Part shown: one piece after another, positions 4,177 to 49,209 of the stretch
Layout: each line of letters opens with the position of its first letter
Numbering within the stretch: position 1 is the stretch's first letter
Assembly (NCBI GenBank): GCA_004134985.1
Contig: REGQ01000004.1
Span: 124,001 to 188,000 of the forward strand
Length of the DNA stretch: 64,000 nt
Source: Paenibacillaceae bacterium
GTDB taxonomy: Bacteria > Bacillota > Bacilli > Paenibacillales > Paenibacillaceae
Direction of reading: 5' to 3'
Notes under the pieces: model-generated
Databases searched by the model: none
The model's input: only the letters and a program-made list of their open reading frames with translations
What the model was told of the DNA's origin: nothing
Made by a program: the position numbers and the translations under genes

Positions 4177-4668
4177 ACTATAGCCTAACGGCGTACAAGC
4201 GGCTTCGTTTCCTGCGGGAGGGCGAGGTCGTTTCGGCGTGCGCTTGCAGCCAACTCAACTTTTAGTTCACACCCTAACTCCATTTCTTTCTGCACCGTGC
4301 GGTAGGGTGATACGTTGGCAGTTGAGCCGCAGCCTTGCACACTATCACTCGTTTTCCTTGTACACCCTAACTCAGGTTGTGAGGAATGGCCAGCAGATTG
4401 GGTGCGGCGGTTGCTGTGCTTTGAAGTTGCGGGTTTGCGGCCCGCCAGCCGTGTTGGCGGAGATAGGGTATACAGCTGCAGCAGCAGCACTATACAGTGC
4501 GAAGCTAGAATTTGCAAAGCTAAATGAAAGGCAATAAAATGCAACACTTTTGCAGCTAGCAGGATGCATTTTGCAAAAAATAAATGGAACGTCTGTCCTT
4601 ATGATCTGCATACGCTATTGAGGCGCTTGATGCCATTATGCGGGACGTATTCGAAAGTCGACCGAATG
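4177..4668. other. Gene-free stretch between ychF and prfA
   Basis: No open frame here has a convincing ribosome site or family resemblance. Visible items are a 12-base direct repeat ACACCCTAACTC (near 4271 and 4360), an inverted pair AAAATGCA/TGCATTTT near 4536 and 4565, and a C+A/G-rich patch around 4430-4460. I see no terminator with a T-run after ychF. Most of the stretch remains unexplained. Confidence 0.5.
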
Positions 4669-4677
4669 TGATATAAT
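4669..4677 (+). promoter_or_regulatory. Extended -10 promoter for prfA
   Basis: TG-A-TATAAT at 4669-4677 is a perfect extended -10 element. No good TTGACA lies 16-18 bases upstream (ATTCGA at 4649). It would start transcription near 4684, about 85 bases before the prfA start. Confidence 0.6.
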
Positions 4678-4767
4678 AATAAGACTGATAACTCGAAAAC
4701 AGTGAGCCGCGAATTTTTCTGGAGCAGCGCAAAGCGGCCGCTAATGACTATAGGAGTGTGTGAGAAC

Positions 4768-5844
4768 ATGATGCTGGACCGATTGCAGGCGCTGGCCGAC
4801 CGCTATGAGAAACTTAGCGAGTTGCTTTGTGACCCGGATGTGGCGAATGATTCGCGGAAACTTCGCGATTATTCCAAGGAGCAGTCTGATTTGCAGGAGC
4901 CGTATAACGCGTTTATGGAATATAAAGAAACCAGTGCCCAGTATGAAGAAGCCAAGCTGATGCAAAATGAGAAGCTTGATGACGAGATGCGGGAAATGGT
5001 CAAGATGGAGCTTGAGGAACTTGGCGAGCGGAAGACGCAGCTTGAGGAGCAAATCCGCTTGTTGCTGCTGCCTAAAGATCCGAACGATGATAAAAATGTG
5101 ATCGTTGAGGTGCGCGGCGCGGCAGGCGGCGACGAGGCCGCACTGTTCGCTTCCGACTTGTATCGCATGTACACCAAATTTGCTGATTCCCAAGGCTGGC
5201 GCACTGAAGTTCTCGATGTCAGCGAGAACGACCTGGGCGGCTATAAGGAAATTATTTTTATGGTCGTTGGCAAGGGCGCATACAGCAAGTTGAAGTTCGA
5301 GAGCGGGGCGCATCGCGTACAGCGTATTCCGGTTACAGAATCCGGGGGGCGTATCCATACATCGACCTCAACGGTAGCGGTAATGCCTGAAGTGGAGGAA
5401 GTGGAAGTGGAAATCCTCGACAAGGACATCCGAATCGATACGTTCTGTTCCAGCGGAGCGGGCGGACAGTCCGTAAATACGACAAAATCTGCTGTGCGTG
5501 TTCTCCATGTGCCTACAGGCATTATGGCAACTTGTCAGGATGGCAAATCGCAAAATGAGAATAAAGCGAAGGCGCTGCAGGTGCTTCGTGCCCGGATTGC
5601 CGATATTCAACGGCAGGAAGAGGAAGCGAAATATGCCGGCGAGCGCAAAAGCAAAGTCGGTACTGGCGACCGCAGTGAACGTATTCGCACCTATAACTTT
5701 CCGCAGAGCCGCGTCACCGATCACCGGATCGGCCTGACGATGCATAAGCTTGATCAGATTATGAACGGCGATATGGGGGAGATTGTGTCTTCGCTCACGA
5801 TTGCCGAGCAGGCTGAGCTGCTTGAGAAGGAGAACATGGCCTAA
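4768..5844 (+). CDS. prfA: Peptide chain release factor 1
   Basis: 358 residues from ATG 4768 ([16 protein letters not shown]). A GTG at 4702 would add 22 residues, but the conserved N-terminus begins at 4768/4771, with AGGAG at 4752-4756. Domain 3 carries the peptidyl-hydrolysis motif GAGGQSVN and the RF1-type codon-recognition tripeptide PVT (in [10 protein letters not shown]), so it reads UAA and UAG. It acts in the ribosomal A site to release the finished protein. Its stop codon is immediately followed by the ATG of prmC, whose product methylates the glutamine of the GGQ motif: a translationally coupled, functionally linked pair as in most bacteria. Confidence 0.97.
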
Positions 5845-7167: not shown

Positions 7168-7848
7168 ATGGTCATCCGCAATCATTCCCGTTTTTCATTC
7201 CGTAAATCGTATGCTTATCTCTTTTTCGTACTGGTAGTGCTGTTAATGAGTTGGGAAGGGCATCGGATTGATGCTGCAGTTATAGAAGGTGGAATTCCGC
7301 AAGAATCGATTCGACTTAGAATTCTGGCCAATTCGGATTCACCGCAAGACCAAGCTGTGAAAAGACATGTCCGCGATGCCATTGTGGCTGAACTGGCCGC
7401 CTGGGTTGACGGTCCCCAGACGATTGAAGAGGCGCGTGCCAACATGCAAGCCCGTCTGCCGGAGCTTGAGGCGCTGGTTGCCAAGGAGCTGCAGGATCGC
7501 GGATTTCAATATACATCGAAGGTTGAGTTGGGTGTTGTCGACTTTCCGACGAAAATGTACGGCAGCAGAGTGTATCCAGCTGGAGATTATGAAGCTTTGC
7601 GTGTATCGCTGGGCAATGCGGAAGGCCAGAACTGGTGGTGCGTGCTGTTCCCACCGCTCTGCTTCGTAGATGCGATGAGCGGCGAGGCAACTGCAGCTCC
7701 GCAGGCTGATAGCGAGGCCGTCGTTGCAGTGTCGGCAGATGCCGCAGCGGATGCTGGAACTGAGGATGCGCAAGCACCGCAAATGAAATTTTTCCTTTGG
7801 GAGCTGCTTGAGTCATTCATCGACTTTGTTCGCAATCTGTTCAGCTAG
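7168..7848 (+). CDS. spoIIR: Stage II sporulation protein R
   Basis: 226 residues from ATG 7168 (MVIRNHSRF), with GAGAGGGG at 7150-7157; the frame is open further upstream but without a better start. One membrane-spanning or signal segment (about 15-32, 'YAYLFFVLVVLLMSW') precedes the family signature 'ESIRLRILANSDSPQDQ' and 'VKRHVRD'. SpoIIR is made in the forespore under sigma-F, exported to the intermembrane space, and triggers the SpoIIGA protease that matures pro-sigma-E in the mother cell. The C-terminal region contains a Glu/Ala-rich spacer (about 170-205) before a conserved-looking 'FFLWELLESFIDFVRNLF' tail. Position between prmC and ywlC matches B. subtilis. Confidence 0.92.
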   Translation: MVIRNHSRFSFRKSYAYLFFVLVVLLMSWEGHRIDAAVIEGGIPQESIRLRILANSDSPQDQAVKRHVRDAIVAELAAWVDGPQTIEEARANMQARLPELEALVAKELQDRGFQYTSKVELGVVDFPTKMYGSRVYPAGDYEALRVSLGNAEGQNWWCVLFPPLCFVDAMSGEATAAPQADSEAVVAVSADAAADAGTEDAQAPQMKFFLWELLESFIDFVRNLFS

Positions 7849-7895
7849 GAAATGCAGACGGATATACCGTGTAACGTAAGGAGCAAGAGAACCCT

Positions 7896-9350
7896 ATGAT
7901 AACAACGACGATATGGTCCATGAAAAGCAGCCGCTACGCCCCGCCCCGCCCTATTGCACAATATGGGGCGGGTGTTCGCGCAGAAAACCAGGCAGACATG
8001 GAAGAGGATGAACTGCGAACCGCAAACGCAGCAGAAGATGCAGCGCAAGCTGAAAAAGCGGATGAAGCGGCCATTTTAGAGGCAGGCAAGCAAATTGGCA
8101 GCGGTGGGGTTGTGGCGTTCCCTACTGAAACCGTCTACGGTCTGGGGGCTGATGCGCGCAGCACGGCCGCTGTAGAACGAATATTTCAGGCCAAGGGAAG
8201 ACCGTCAGACAACCCGTTGATCGTACATATTTCGGATCGGGGGCAACTGGCGGATTTTGTTGCCGATTGGAACGAGCTGGCTTCACGGCTTATGGATCGC
8301 TTTTGGCCGGGACCGTTGACAATAGTACTGCCTGTTCGCGAGGGCGCCGTTTCGGAGCGGGTCACAGCGGGGCTGGATACGGTAGCGGTCAGAATGCCTG
8401 ATCATGAAGTTGCCCTGCGGCTGATCGCTGCCGCACAGTGTCCGGTCGCAGCGCCGAGCGCCAATCGATCAGGCCGACCCAGCCCGACGCTTGCTTCCCA
8501 CGTAGCTGAAGACTTGTCGGGTTATATCGACGGTATTGTAGATGGCGGAGCGACAGGCGTAGGTCTGGAATCGACGGTTATTGAAATTGTATCTGACGAT
8601 ACGGTTCGTATTTTGCGCCCCGGCGGAGTTACCGCAGAGCAGCTTGGTGAAATAGCGGGCTGTGTTCTGGATGAAGAAGACGAAAAAACGGAAGCGACCA
8701 AAGATATAAAACCCGAGGACGCCTTGTCGGCATTAAGCGAAGTTGGCGTATCGACAGAAGCTGGTGTGCCAGCCCGATTGGGTGTGTCGTCCAAAGACGG
8801 TATGCCCGCTCAAGTCGGCGTGTCGTCCAAAGACGGTGTACCCACCGAAGTTGGTGTGTCGTCCGAAGACGGTGTACCCACCGAAGCTGGTGTGTCGTCC
8901 AAAGACGGTATGCCCGCTCAAGTCGGCGTGTCGTCTGGAACTGGAGATGCGGCCGTTGTCTTGCAGGAGACCCAGGCACCTCGTTCGCCGGGGATGAAAT
9001 ATACGCATTACGCGCCGCGAGGGTCGATGCTGCTTGTTGAGGGAGAACCGTCTGCTGTCCAGGCATACATTAACCGCCAGCTTGCGGAAGCGAATGCGCG
9101 CGGCGTTAAGACAGGGGTACTCACTTATGATGAGCATATTGCTGAGTATCAGGATGCGCATCTGGCATTGGCCTGCGGAAGTCTGGGGGAACTGGAATCG
9201 GCAGCCAGGCAGTTATATGCTGTGCTGCGTGAGTTCGATGCTTGCGAAGTGGAAGCGATTTGGGCGGAAGCTTGTTCGCGAGCTGGCATTGGCCAGGCAC
9301 TGATGAACCGTCTAACCAAAGCAGCAGGACACCGCATTGTTAGAGTTTGA
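7896..9350 (+). CDS. ywlC: L-threonylcarbamoyladenylate synthase, Sua5 type, with repeat-filled linker
   Basis: 484 residues, against about 345 for typical bacterial Sua5/YwlC proteins. After an atypical Ala/Glu-rich leader (about 1-55) comes the TsaC/YrdC domain with 'VAFPTETVYGLGADA', 'KGRPSDNPLIVHI' and 'SAPSANRSGRPSPT'. The conserved linker motif PGMKYTHYAPRG and the Sua5 C-terminal domain (about 375-484) follow. The extra length is mainly five 12-residue repeats (residues about 284-343) inserted just before that linker motif. The enzyme makes threonylcarbamoyl-AMP from threonine, bicarbonate and ATP for t6A37 in ANN-decoding tRNAs. AGGAG at 7878-7882 supports ATG 7896, though the spacing is long and ATG 7920 is possible. 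Function should be intact because the insertion is in a flexible interdomain segment. Confidence 0.92.
   Translation: MITTTIWSMKSSRYAPPRPIAQYGAGVRAENQADMEEDELRTANAAEDAAQAEKADEAAILEAGKQIGSGGVVAFPTETVYGLGADARSTAAVERIFQAKGRPSDNPLIVHISDRGQLADFVADWNELASRLMDRFWPGPLTIVLPVREGAVSERVTAGLDTVAVRMPDHEVALRLIAAAQCPVAAPSANRSGRPSPTLASHVAEDLSGYIDGIVDGGATGVGLESTVIEIVSDDTVRILRPGGVTAEQLGEIAGCVLDEEDEKTEATKDIKPEDALSALSEVGVSTEAGVPARLGVSSKDGMPAQVGVSSKDGVPTEVGVSSEDGVPTEAGVSSKDGMPAQVGVSSGTGDAAVVLQETQAPRSPGMKYTHYAPRGSMLLVEGEPSAVQAYINRQLAEANARGVKTGVLTYDEHIAEYQDAHLALACGSLGELESAARQLYAVLREFDACEVEAIWAEACSRAGIGQALMNRLTKAAGHRIVRV
8745..8924 (+). repeat. 36-bp tandem repeat, 5 copies, inside ywlC
   Basis: Units begin at 8745, 8781, 8817, 8853 and 8889, plus a partial copy at 8925. 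They encode GVSTEAGVPARL, GVSSKDGMPAQV, GVSSKDGVPTEV, GVSSEDGVPTEA and GVSSKDGMPAQV. Units 2 and 5 are nearly identical in DNA, which suggests recent duplication or gene conversion. Confidence 0.95.
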
Positions 9351-45404: not shown

Positions 45405-46154
45405 ATGAATGAACAACAGAACAAGTCCAATAAGCAAGAAGAAGAGGCTCTCAAATCTGCTTCAGGAGAGCGTACTGCCGTAAAAGGCTCATCATGGAAA
45501 AGGTTGCTGTCGAAAAAATGGGTCTCCCCGGCAGCGTTCATAGCCGCGGCAGCACTCATCGTAACCTTAATGTGGATCTACCAGGGGACGCAAGAGCAGC
45601 CTGTGACGACGAACGAGACTGGCGTACTTACGGAGACCGCTGAAGGGAACGAAGAAGGTGTATTGGCGCCTTCAGAAGAAACAATGGAAGCGGCCGCTAA
45701 AAATGAGCAAATGCAGTGGCCGGTTCTGAACCGTGAAGAATTGGAAGTTTCGACGCCTTTCTACGAGGCCGAAGCGTCAGGCGAAGACCGGCAGGCGGCC
45801 ATCGTGCAGACGGACAATACGTTCACGCCGCATATGGGAATCGATCTGTCACGGCAAGATGATCAAAGCTTTGAGGTCGTCGCTGCGATGAGCGGAAAAG
45901 TCAGCCATGTAAAACTTCACCCGACGAACGGCAATATTGTAGAGATCACGCATCCGAATGGTTTGGTAACAATCTATCAAAGTTTGACAGACGTCCAGGT
46001 GAAAACTGGGGATGCTGTTCTGCAGAACACAATTATCGGAAAAGCGGGACGCAACGAGCTGGAGAAAGACCACGGTGTTCACTTGCACTTTGAAGTACGC
46101 AATGACGAAGAAGCGCTTAATCCGCTAGCATTGTTCTCCGATCTAGCAAATTGA
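45405..46154 (+). CDS. spoIIQ: Stage II sporulation protein Q, LytM/M23-type
   Basis: 249 residues; GTGAGGTGATG precedes ATG 45405. A short cytoplasmic tail and one membrane helix (about 42-59) lead to a LytM domain in the intermembrane space. Position directly after spoIID and the M23 fold identify SpoIIQ, the forespore half of the SpoIIQ-SpoIIIAH channel/zipper. The metal ligands look complete: His143 and Asp147 in PHMGIDLS and the HLH of HLHFEV at 226-228. B. subtilis SpoIIQ lacks the first histidine and is inactive, so this version may be an active endopeptidase as suggested for clostridial SpoIIQ. Confidence 0.9.
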   Translation: MNEQQNKSNKQEEEALKSASGERTAVKGSSWKRLLSKKWVSPAAFIAAAALIVTLMWIYQGTQEQPVTTNETGVLTETAEGNEEGVLAPSEETMEAAAKNEQMQWPVLNREELEVSTPFYEAEASGEDRQAAIVQTDNTFTPHMGIDLSRQDDQSFEVVAAMSGKVSHVKLHPTNGNIVEITHPNGLVTIYQSLTDVQVKTGDAVLQNTIIGKAGRNELEKDHGVHLHFEVRNDEEALNPLALFSDLAN

Positions 46155-46177: not shown

Positions 46178-46220
46178 GCCAACAGCTTCGCAATCCTTCG
46201 TGGATTGCGAAGCTGTTGGC
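46178..46220. terminator. Perfect 19-bp hairpin after spoIIQ, no T-run
   Basis: The arms 46178-46196 and 46202-46220 (GCCAACAGCTTCG.../...CGAAGCTGTTGGC) are perfectly complementary around loop TTCGT. The following bases are ATGTTCC. It may stop transcription from either side or protect the spoIIQ mRNA, and lies 42 bases outside the inverted-repeat element. Confidence 0.6.
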
Positions 46221-46261: not shown

Positions 46262-46288
46262 CAGGTCGCACAATACCGATAGTTCGAC
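46262..46288 (+). repeat. Left 27-bp inverted repeat (putative recombination site)
   Basis: Reads CAGGTCGCACAAT...ATAGTTCGAC. It is the exact reverse complement of 47491-47517; the bases on both sides differ between the two ends. Confidence 0.95.
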
Positions 46289-46414
46289 TTAATAGGCCTT
46301 ACAAACCATATCTAATTATAGGTATTTAGGTCTATATTAACATGGGTTTCAATAGTTTGTCATCCTGATCCTTTGAATTAACCCTATCGCTCAGAAGAGA
46401 TCGTTTCTTTAAAA

Positions 46415-47305
46415 CTATTTGGCGGCAAGCAGATGTTTAATACTTTCCTCTACATAATCTGACGCAGATTTCTCCAATTGCTGTACAGTGTGCAGATAAC
46501 GCTGGGTCGTAGTAATTTCCGCATGACCGAGACTTTCCTGAACCTGCTGCAGCGTGGCCCCTCCCAATAATGCCAACGTAGCATTCGTATGCCTGAGCCA
46601 GTGAGGCGTTACGGTTTTCTGAAGGTTGGCGCTGCTAGAGGCTTGGCGGATAATACGCTCAACCTGCCGCGTTGTAATCGGCAGGAGCTGCACCATGCCA
46701 AAATACTGCCTGCTGTTCTGAATTTCCGACCATAGCATCGGCGGCACTTTGATTTCTCTTGATTTGCCGCCCTTCCCTTTGCGGATACTCACCCAGATTG
46801 ATGTCTCCGCAACATCCTCATAGAAGTCTCTCCACTCTACTGCGATAAGCTCAGATACCCTAAGCCCAAGCATGACAAGCATTAAACCGATCATATAGTT
46901 GCGAACGGATTGCTTTTTAAGTGCGGCAAGCAGCATGGATAATTCATTTTTGGTCAAGTACCGGTGCCTGCTATTGATCTGAATTTTGGGCATGCGGACA
47001 CAAGTTGTCGGATTTTGCTCAAGCAAGCCGATATTAGGATCGCTGCCCCATTTGTATAAAGAGCGGATCGAAGCCATCTGAATGGCAACGCTGGCCGACG
47101 ATTGCGGCCGTTTCCCCAACTCTCCGTTTAACAGCGCCAACTTAAAGTTTTCCACTGCCTGCCACTGGGCTTCCCGAAGCGAAGCCGGATTAATAAACTG
47201 CCGAAATCGTGAGATAGCCAGCCGATAATTTCTTAAGGTGTACGGTGATCTGTCCCTGTAAGATACCAGAAACCTGTCTACAATGATGTCGTCCTTTAAG
47301 AACAC
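46415..47305 (-). CDS. Tyrosine recombinase / integrase, Xer-like
   Basis: 296 residues from GTG 47305, which has a perfect AGGAGGTG seven bases upstream on the minus strand; ATG 47377 is in frame but lacks a ribosome site. An N-terminal SAM-like core-binding domain ('SPYTLRNYRLAISRFRQFI') precedes the catalytic domain. All catalytic residues are present: Arg149 (LGLRVSEL), Lys178/181 in the beta-hairpin RKGKGGKSR, His235 and Arg238 (TPHWLRHTNAT), His261 (ESLGHAEITT) and Tyr270 (TQRYLH). It should cut and rejoin DNA through a 3'-phosphotyrosine. It is oriented against all neighbours and lies inside a 27-bp inverted repeat that is probably its substrate. It is not the chromosomal XerC/XerD by context. 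Confidence 0.92.
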   Translation of the reverse strand: MFLKDDIIVDRFLVSYRDRSPYTLRNYRLAISRFRQFINPASLREAQWQAVENFKLALLNGELGKRPQSSASVAIQMASIRSLYKWGSDPNIGLLEQNPTTCVRMPKIQINSRHRYLTKNELSMLLAALKKQSVRNYMIGLMLVMLGLRVSELIAVEWRDFYEDVAETSIWVSIRKGKGGKSREIKVPPMLWSEIQNSRQYFGMVQLLPITTRQVERIIRQASSSANLQKTVTPHWLRHTNATLALLGGATLQQVQESLGHAEITTTQRYLHTVQQLEKSASDYVEESIKHLLAAK

Positions 47306-47490
47306 TCTCGCACCTCCTGTATTTTTGTGTGAAACAAAACGCACTCTCAAACGATGCAATATGATTGTTGAGGCCATCCTGGCCTTTATTCTGTTATGCT
47401 GACACGATTTTCCTTGCTAGACAAGTAGATTGTTTCAATGCTCTCCTGACACTTTTCGGAAGGTCAAGCAGATTGATTTGGGGTCTGGGC

Positions 47491-47517
47491 GTCGAACTAT
47501 CGGTATTGTGCGACCTG
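47491..47517 (-). repeat. Right 27-bp inverted repeat (putative recombination site)
   Basis: GTCGAACTAT, CGGT, ATTGTGCGAC and CTG in order. The two 10-base arms are complementary at 8 of 10 positions around a 4-base centre. It lies 92 bases upstream of the HD-GYP gene. Confidence 0.95.
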
Positions 47518-47608: not shown

Positions 47609-48820
47609 GTGAGGGAAACGTTGATAAGCATGTTGCGTCCGGGGGATGTCATCGCTCGTTCAATCCGCAATAAGAACGGCCAGACTGTGCTGAAGGAAGG
47701 CACGCCGCTTACCGGTCATTATCTTGACCGGTTGGAGCAAATGGGGATTAAGACAGTCATGATTGAATCGCTGCCGACAGCCAGCGTCCTTGCGCCCATA
47801 GGGAGCAGTCAGGCGGAGTCCTCGCAGAAGGGCCGGCAAGTATCCTCGCAGGCCAATCAGGGAATGATGGTTGTCCAGATGCACCAGGCGACGCCGCAGC
47901 TGCGACGCAAGAATGACCATGTCCAGCAAGAATATATGCTGCATTACCGTGAGCGTGTCAAAGACACGCTGATTCGTGTGATCGAGCCCGGCAAGCTGTT
48001 GGGCCGAATGACGGACGAAGCCCTCGAAAGCCGCTTTCGGCGGGTGTTTCGCAGCATCATGCTTGATATTTCCTCTCATTCCCAGATGGTGGATTATCTT
48101 GCCCAACTGCTGGAGATGGACAATTATTTATTTGAACATTCGATTAATGTAGCGGAATTGTCGTGCATCATGGGGGTAGCTGGCGGATTCGACAGCTCGG
48201 AGCTGCTGGAATTAACAATAGGCGGCTTGATGTTCGACATCGGTATGATCAAGCAGCCGCCGTCGCTTTTGAAGAGTGACCGTAAATTAACTTACGATGA
48301 GCGGATGACCCTGCAGAATCATACGACAGAAGGCTACCGCATGCTGCTTGAAATAGACGGAGTATCCCATAAGGCGGCCCAATGCGCGTTGTTTCATCAT
48401 GAGCGATTCAATGGCAACGGCTATCCGATGCGTGTCAAGGGAATGGAAATTCCGGAAATGGCGCAGATTGTGGCGATTGCCGATGTATTCGATGCGCTTA
48501 TCTCACCCCGTCATCACCGCAGTCCTTTTTCCGAAAGCGAGGCCATTGAATATTTGTTTGCGTCGGGCAACCACTTTTTCAGGGCGGATTTAGTGAATAT
48601 GTTTTTGAAGCAGGTGCTGTTTTTTCCGGAGGCGAGCGTACTTAAATTAAGCAGCGGGCAAGTTGCTGTCGTAACGGCCACAAGTACCGGAATGGCGCAT
48701 CGGCCTATCGTCAAAATTATTAGAGAATCGGACGGAACGGCTGTCGGTTCTCCTTACGAATTGGATCTGGCATTGAACCGGGATATTGTTGTTTTGCACT
48801 CTATTCAGGGGATTGGTTGA
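47609..48820 (+). CDS. HD-GYP-domain protein with altered HD motif
   Basis: 403 residues from GTG 47609, eleven bases after GAGGAGAGG. An N-terminal segment ('LISMLRPGDVIARSIRNKNGQTVLKEGTPLTGHYLDRLEQMGI') of the kind found before HD-GYP domains is followed by a Gln/Ser-rich linker and the HD-GYP domain (about 150-345). HHERFNGNGYP (263-273) is the GYP signature and 'ADVFDAL' its C-terminal aspartate site. However, the expected HDIGK is FDIGM (209-213): the metal-binding histidine and the lysine are both replaced. HD-GYP enzymes degrade cyclic di-GMP; this one may be inactive or act as a sensor. A possible promoter TTAGAC-N17-TAATGT (47529-47557) lies outside the neighbouring inverted repeat. 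Confidence 0.85.
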   Translation: MRETLISMLRPGDVIARSIRNKNGQTVLKEGTPLTGHYLDRLEQMGIKTVMIESLPTASVLAPIGSSQAESSQKGRQVSSQANQGMMVVQMHQATPQLRRKNDHVQQEYMLHYRERVKDTLIRVIEPGKLLGRMTDEALESRFRRVFRSIMLDISSHSQMVDYLAQLLEMDNYLFEHSINVAELSCIMGVAGGFDSSELLELTIGGLMFDIGMIKQPPSLLKSDRKLTYDERMTLQNHTTEGYRMLLEIDGVSHKAAQCALFHHERFNGNGYPMRVKGMEIPEMAQIVAIADVFDALISPRHHRSPFSESEAIEYLFASGNHFFRADLVNMFLKQVLFFPEASVLKLSSGQVAVVTATSTGMAHRPIVKIIRESDGTAVGSPYELDLALNRDIVVLHSIQGIG

Positions 48821-48921: not shown

Positions 48922-49209
48922 GTGCATGATTACATCAAAGAACGGACGATAAAAATCGGCCGCTGCATTGTGGAAACAAAAAATACAGTACGGACGATAG
49001 CCAAAGAATTTGGTGTGTCCAAAAGCACGGTGCACAAGGATCTGACTGAGCGGCTGCCGGAAATTAATCCTGATCTTGCTGACCAGGTAAAGCACATTCT
49101 CGAATATCACAAATCGATACGTCATTTAAGGGGAGGCGAAGCGACCAAAATCAAATATAAGAAAACTGTTACCAAAAAGCGTGAAGTGCTTACTGCCGGA
49201 AAAACATGA
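48922..49209 (+). CDS. spoIIID: Sporulation transcription factor SpoIIID
   Basis: 95 residues, starting at GTG 48922 (MHDYIKERTIKIGRCIVETK) after GGGAGGCGGG; the nearby ATG at 48926 is out of frame. The sequence is nearly the B. subtilis protein through residue 77: helix-turn-helix 'TVRTIAKEFGVSKSTVHKDL', then 'EINPDLADQVKHILEYHK' and 'SIRHLRGGEATKIKYKK', the basic C-terminal region that contacts the minor groove. SpoIIID represses and activates mother-cell genes after sigma-E and before sigma-K. Only the last 15 residues diverge. Confidence 0.97.
   Translation: MHDYIKERTIKIGRCIVETKNTVRTIAKEFGVSKSTVHKDLTERLPEINPDLADQVKHILEYHKSIRHLRGGEATKIKYKKTVTKKREVLTAGKT

Follow-up and report, generated by a model that had tools for sequence, protein, structure and literature searches.

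In Salmonella, the recombinase Hin lies within an invertible DNA segment with an outward-directed promoter at one end, by which a neighbouring gene is switched. The dif sites, at which Xer recombinases have their role at the chromosome terminus, are short dyads with a 6-bp spacer, while insertion sequences and pdif modules provide the models for minimal mobile elements. The location of Hin within its own segment is also named in the available excerpt of PMC5903667. A related principle operates in the pdcB switch (Cdi2) of Clostridioides difficile, where, according to PMC9286219, a c-di-GMP phosphodiesterase gene is under the control of an invertible promoter. For some Paenibacillus species, colony and motility variants are described, with their direct mechanism left open in PMC3694910.

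The locus analysed here is part of a 64-kb stretch of DNA (64,000 nucleotides, referred to as the window) from a Paenibacillaceae bacterium. Judged from its sequence, the segment 46262–47517 appears to be a self-contained, Hin-like promoter-inversion switch controlling a c-di-GMP/chemotaxis gene, a reading to which a probability of roughly 0.86 is assigned. The tyrosine recombinase would act on the two inverted sites around its own gene and flip the 1.26-kb segment, and a promoter located inside the segment behind the recombinase stop codon would point outward. In state B this promoter would drive the HD-GYP or chemotaxis gene next to the segment; in state A, which is present in the window, it would point away from the target, and a flip would make it face the HD-GYP gene. 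This kind of switch is real and probably active. From the sequence comparison we infer that inversion is the work of this recombinase, that the window copy still flips and that transcription follows orientation, with phase-variable c-di-GMP or chemotaxis signalling as the expected outcome.

Repeat pair, core site and recombinase of the window

A preceding sequence-only reading had described a perfect 27-bp inverted repeat with a recombinase as the only gene in between, and both statements hold. The two arms (Table 1) are complementary at 27 of 27 positions, inverted and separated by 1202 nt, and the recombinase gene is the sole ORF of at least 60 aa that lies wholly inside. By simple arithmetic, a random sequence of 64 kb would contain such a pair with an expected number of about 1e-7. 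When up to 3 mismatches are allowed, the 24-bp core is present twice in the 7.71-Mb genome, both copies belonging to the window pair. A search for the 27-mer elsewhere, which had been proposed as a check, accordingly gave no additional copy in the window genome (up to 3 mismatches), so that the refuting condition of no other copies applies to this 27-mer in this genome. What the genome does hold is a divergent family member, the second one there, whose own sites differ (L077 5065–6231; G000:C8:21189–22076). This second element adjoins another HD-GYP gene and is in the predicted ON orientation. Within each 27-mer, a dyad with 8 of 10 complementary positions and a 4-base centre had been described; the count stands on inspection by eye, but the family instead suggests arms of 9 bp and a spacer of 6 bp. 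In this 9-6-9 layout the minus-strand core of the site at the recombinase 3' end reads GTCGAACTA-TCGGTA-TTGTGCGAC, with complementarity at 7 of 9 arm positions.

Table 1. Features of the element and its surroundings, in window coordinates
Feature	Position	Strand	Basis
spoIIQ, flank on the non-target side; presently convergent with the promoter	45405..46154	+	PF01551; best NCBIfam match SpoIIQ
Perfect hairpin (19-bp stem, 5-nt loop) that separates spoIIQ from the element	46178..46220	.	inverted-repeat search
Recombination site, recombinase 3' end	46262..46288	-	perfect inverted copy of 47491–47517; design as in 117 of 119 distinct elements
Outward promoter-like sequence ATGTTA-17-TATAAT, through the 46262–46288 site toward the spoIIQ 3' end	46315..46343	-	score 9.5; same place and direction across the family
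Tyrosine recombinase	46415..47305	-	PF00589; likely start GTG 47305, longest ORF reaches 47377
Ribosome-binding-site-like GGAGGTG before the recombinase	47311..47317	-	read from the sequence
Recombination site, recombinase 5' end	47491..47517	+	perfect inverted copy of 46262–46288; no further copy in the genome; family site design
HD-GYP-type signalling protein, predicted target, reads away from the element	47609..48820	+	PF13487, E 6.3e-28; family target position
spoIIID, next gene after the target, locus landmark	48922..49209	+	TIGR02844 above cut-off

The recombinase consists of a PF00589 domain (E 1.2e-22) and a SAM-like N-terminal domain (Pfam). The full catalytic set claimed earlier (R, K, H, R, H, Y) is confirmed by alignment, where R, K, H-x-x-R, H and Y fall into columns conserved in 101–102 of 102 members; these are the residues which we take to have the catalytic roles. 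Catalytic domain and conserved residues place the protein among the tyrosine recombinases and not among the Hin-like serine invertases. The best PDB match is XerA (5hxy, E 2.4e-19), and in NCBIfam the scores against XerC, XerD and XerA stay below the equivalog cut-offs (131.2 versus 220, 125.8 versus 335.15 and 114.8 versus 329.6 bits). Because of the ribosome-binding-site-like sequence at 47311–47317 and the point where homology begins, the GTG at 47303–47305 is the likely start codon, rather than 47377. Ka/Ks values of 0.03–0.11 in all ten recombinase pairs tested, one of them with saturated Ks, indicate purifying selection and therefore a maintained gene.

Spread, site design and orientation of the family

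A protein scan of species genomes revealed 36 relatives with 47–57% identity, apart from one with 37%, in records of Paenibacillus, Brevibacillus, Aneurinibacillus, Cohnella, Bacillus and one Bacillaceae MAG; in 35 of these 36 an inverted site pair flanks the recombinase. At E≤1e-70, recombinase relatives occur in 83 of 394 genomes of the bacterial family, with one to three members per matching genome. The resulting 93 loci, the window and 92 others, were chosen by recombinase sequence alone at this threshold. In an order-wide sample, in which the recombinase only was scanned, 58 of 296 genomes contain a relative at E≤1e-60. At 92 of the 93 loci the recombinase is flanked by an inverted pair that scores at least 15, and the elements measure 1061–1351 bp, with three at 1521 bp and a median of 1153 bp. 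The exception is Paenibacillus fonticola (L042/L084), where the sites at 4478–4718 enclose a 241-bp segment and the recombinase is situated just outside. This short segment carries the promoter-like sequence TTGTGA-17-TATAAT pointing at a gene pair for a CheW-like protein and an MCP, and amounts to the same switch in a fim-like layout.

For the site design, spacers of 5–8 bp were tried, with 6 preferred on ties, and L042/L084 were dropped for their differing layout, leaving 119 distinct elements. A 9-6-9 dyad is present in 117 of them, and the arms are complementary at 7 or more of 9 positions in 114 of 119. The 117 dyads comprise 38 spacer types, and in 115 of 119 elements the spacer is identical at both ends, which is what a strand exchange that depends on matching spacers would lead one to expect. 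With many natural recombinase/site pairs of one design and different spacers, the family is useful for studying recombinase-site co-evolution. One locus, L105, displays a 73-bp inverted repeat (4423–4495 and 5558–5630) that includes the recombinase start at both ends, which is due either to an extension of the repeat or to an assembly error.

Orientations were compared among 120 distinct recombinase DNAs, obtained from 129 loci after nine duplicate records had been dropped. Where both flanks are homologous, 231 pairs share the same orientation and 25 are flipped; both orientations are found at 3 of 18 multi-member loci and a single one at the other 15. The window's own spoIIQ/HD-GYP locus belongs to the former type, with opposite orientations in G035 and G036 and the window oriented like G036. 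Between L155 and L161, which represent two species, the flanks are 90.2% and 87.6% identical in reverse and the element is 89.2% identical in forward direction. The alignment blocks overlap exactly at the 26-bp sites, which places the breakpoints on the sites, and the comparison of L168 with L161 likewise breaks within the sites. Since L155 and L168 reside on contigs of 6.5 and 5.7 Mb, an error of draft assembly is an unlikely cause of this flip.

Moreover, both junction types can be observed within each of three single assemblies, G042, G277 (the record of P. daejeonensis L034) and G279 (the record of P. sabuli L032), all of them drafts, which were noticed and picked for contigs ending at or near a site rather than by a systematic scan. 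In G042, the site connects the recombinase 5' end with the HD-GYP flank on contig C2, and with a different flank at the end of contig C20 (43 bp beyond the site, identical). This other flank matches the 3' flank of the relative L150 with 93.4% identity over 1359 bp. In G277, a second flank continues through the site into the first 11 bp on its far side, where an N gap follows; this flank matches the 5' flank of the second element of the window genome with 69.6% identity over 818 bp. In G279, the target flank is joined to both element ends (65 bp plus the site). Assembly error retains a residual chance as the cause in these three drafts. Two further loci are of note: the contig of L017 ends 100 bp past the site, and in L003 (G035) an N gap and a duplicated recombinase start at about 1500–1660 coincide with the site, as though two arrangements had been encountered during assembly.

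In conclusion, the initial suggestion of an invertible segment is supported for the family, in which inverted core sites are combined with both orientations of the segment, by flipped relatives, breakpoints on the sites and both junctions in three assemblies. The counter-case formulated in advance, that only one orientation is ever found, thus fails at family level; the assembly of the window strain itself shows one orientation only.

Target genes and the outward promoter

At 87 of the 93 loci, an HD-type gene (70 loci, assignments Pfam-checked on examples) or a CheW-like gene (17 loci, called by tblastn to one CheW protein) is located within 900 bp on exactly one side of the element and reads away from it. 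Each element serves as its own control through its opposite side and the opposite reading direction, and at none of the 93 loci do genes of this kind read away on both sides. An additional HD-type gene reading toward the element was found at a single locus, L083 of G036, where it is positioned between spoIIQ and the element (7315–8454). The target is on the recombinase 5' side (state A) at 65 loci and on the 3' side (state B) at 22. At L008 the target operon comprises an HD-type gene, an MCP and CheW. The scan detected no HD, CheW, MCP or EAL gene at the remaining six loci; on individual examination, a GGDEF-EAL gene reads away at L143, with which L146 clusters, and a gene for a SecA-like protein of 787 aa reads away at L088, which forms a cluster with L092, L094 and L096 in one genus.

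By its position, the HD-GYP gene 47609–48820, not spoIIQ, is most likely the gene that is switched in the window, and the window is predicted to be in state A, that is OFF for the outward promoter. Among 78 extracted HD-type targets, HD is kept in 65 and the GYP pattern in 72 (first pattern match). In the window target, GNGYP is present and FDIG is found where most relatives have HD, as is also the case in the targets of G035 and G036, so that the H of the HD motif expected for a c-di-GMP phosphodiesterase is missing. Because FDIG replaces HD, the window target may not degrade c-di-GMP and could act as a receptor or regulator rather than as a phosphodiesterase.

The spoIIQ assignment is based on an NCBIfam score of 228.5 bits against a cut-off of 250. 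The six other genomes of the window's genus have spoIIQ beside spoIIID, with neither the element nor an HD gene at this place. Twelve regions around HD-GYP relatives were examined; six of them (G034, G026, G393, G022, G019 and G016) display the order spoIIQ-HD-spoIIID with no recombinase match in the stretch, and the other six showed no spoIIQ. This pattern may reflect either a joint gain of switch and target or a loss in the others. The sporulation setting looks incidental, with relatives carrying the switch beside HD-GYP or CheW-like genes at other loci.

The outward promoter of the window is weak when this copy is taken alone, its score of 9.5 being reached by 18% of 60 shuffles. A stricter promoter scan does not list 46343–46315 and gives an overlapping candidate at 46363–46334 instead. 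Across the family, the mean score of the outward, sigma-A-like promoter is 9.81, compared to 7.48 on the other strand and 7.59 in shuffled sequence (n=93). Scores of at least 8.5 are reached by 88 of 93 outward and 33 of 93 inward stretches, and the spacing is 17 nt in 85 of the 92 elements with a match, 17 being favoured by half a point in scoring. Taken singly, 55 of 93 promoters of these related members attain p≤0.05 (60 shuffles each). An outward promoter that faces the target in one orientation is therefore a sequence feature of the family, weakly developed in the window copy. Terminators were found in 48 of 109 non-target stretches of 400 bp and in 12 of 112 target-side intergenic stretches, the compared lengths being different. 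In the window, the hairpin at 46178–46220 is a possible terminator that has no clear T-run and is not among the terminators of the stricter promoter/terminator scan.

Alternative explanations and comparison with known systems

The window copy could be a former switch that has become fixed, the family still inverting while this copy is locked and its HD-GYP gene has changed its role. The FDIG motif shared with the targets of G035 and G036, the weak outward promoter, the unusually long leader before the recombinase and a consensus assembly in one orientation would all fit such a history. However, neither the 27-bp repeats nor the recombinase with its conserved residues show any damage, the repeats still matching perfectly, and the same locus is flipped in G035, which makes a locked copy unlikely.

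Alternatively, inversion might mainly regulate the recombinase itself, or produce antisense RNA into the other flank (spoIIQ), instead of controlling the HD-GYP gene. A recombinase start could be recognised in 72 of the 92 members examined (L084 being left out; the other 20 have none), and in 70 of these 72 it is 40 bp or less away from the site; the recombinase promoter is thus probably outside the segment and changes on flipping. In addition, the outward promoter of the window currently points at spoIIQ. Against this explanation, it is the HD-GYP or chemotaxis gene that forms the shared partner, whereas the other flank differs between loci, and the hairpin behind spoIIQ may block antisense transcription. 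Furthermore, inward promoters in the flanks are unconvincing: the best ones score 6.81 in target flanks versus 5.16 when shuffled and 7.93 versus 6.00 in non-target flanks (n=107 elements, short, N-containing and unassigned ones dropped), in a stretch which includes the -10-box-like TACAAT of the site. Control of the recombinase or of spoIIQ as the main function is consequently considered quite improbable.

That the locus is a minimal mobile element, in which one recombinase gene between inverted ends transposes or integrates by these ends, is highly improbable and was rejected as the main reading: its patchy presence (83/394 genomes), the six genomes of the genus with spoIIQ beside spoIIID and neither element nor HD gene, and the second, divergent member in the window genome would agree with mobility, but they are outweighed by the same neighbour class in the same outward direction at 87/93 loci, one to three members per matching genome, the precise in-place inversion between L155 and L161 and purifying selection on the recombinase in 10/10 pairs, and the several copies at unrelated sites expected of an insertion sequence or transposon are not seen, the window site having no extra copy in the genome even when up to 3 mismatches are allowed.

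Within the favoured reading of a promoter-inversion switch, the closeness of recombinase start and site in most members, together with a promoter probably outside the segment, raises the tentative idea of a built-in feedback, in which each flip also changes the flank driving the recombinase and thereby sets both the target and its own flipping rate. If true, c-di-GMP and chemotaxis would be governed, across the order, by a switch that is directional and limits itself. The preponderance of state A over state B (65 versus 22) would then be a trace of this feedback, and the window copy, an outlier with its start 185 bp from its own site, would with this long leader be a derived form that has its own recombinase promoter.

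The family provides a concrete candidate for a genetic switch beside c-di-GMP/chemotaxis genes in about one fifth of the family genomes (83/394), and a link to the known Paenibacillus morphotypes is a candidate only. Literature on invertible promoters, invertons and phase variation in Paenibacillus, in a search that covered subscription journals and preprints thinly, contained no account of such a switch. As far as these searches show, a Paenibacillaceae-centred family with a consistent target class and, as a rule, a tyrosine recombinase inside its own segment is new.

The Xer proteins (XerA, XerC, XerD) are the best sequence relatives of the recombinase and share the short dyad core site with its 6-bp spacer. 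Unlike Xer/dif, the protein remains far below the equivalog cut-offs, and its sites are paired, inverted and located beside a target gene, not at the chromosome terminus. An 844-bp invertible segment of Providencia stuartii also encloses a recombinase ORF but is bordered by 14-bp imperfect repeats and belongs to a fimbrial locus, and in Desulfitobacterium dehalogenans an invertible site is found beside an HD-type phosphodiesterase gene, the same target class (both in the available excerpt of PMC5903667). The pdcB switch (Cdi2) of C. difficile resembles the window in placing a promoter inversion before a c-di-GMP gene. As given in the accessible part of PMC9286219, its segment differs by a length of 174 bp, 19-bp imperfect repeats and a distance of 840 bp upstream of the gene; moreover, its target is of EAL type, compared to HD-GYP in the window, and its recombinase is not identified in that part. 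The closest overall resemblance in architecture is to the H segment of Salmonella Hin, with a recombinase inside the segment, an end promoter directed outward and a neighbouring gene that is switched. Hin, in contrast, belongs to the serine recombinases, works with a Fis enhancer and has flagellin genes as its targets (see also PMC3798978), whereas the elements described here combine an Xer-like tyrosine recombinase with predicted c-di-GMP and chemotaxis targets.
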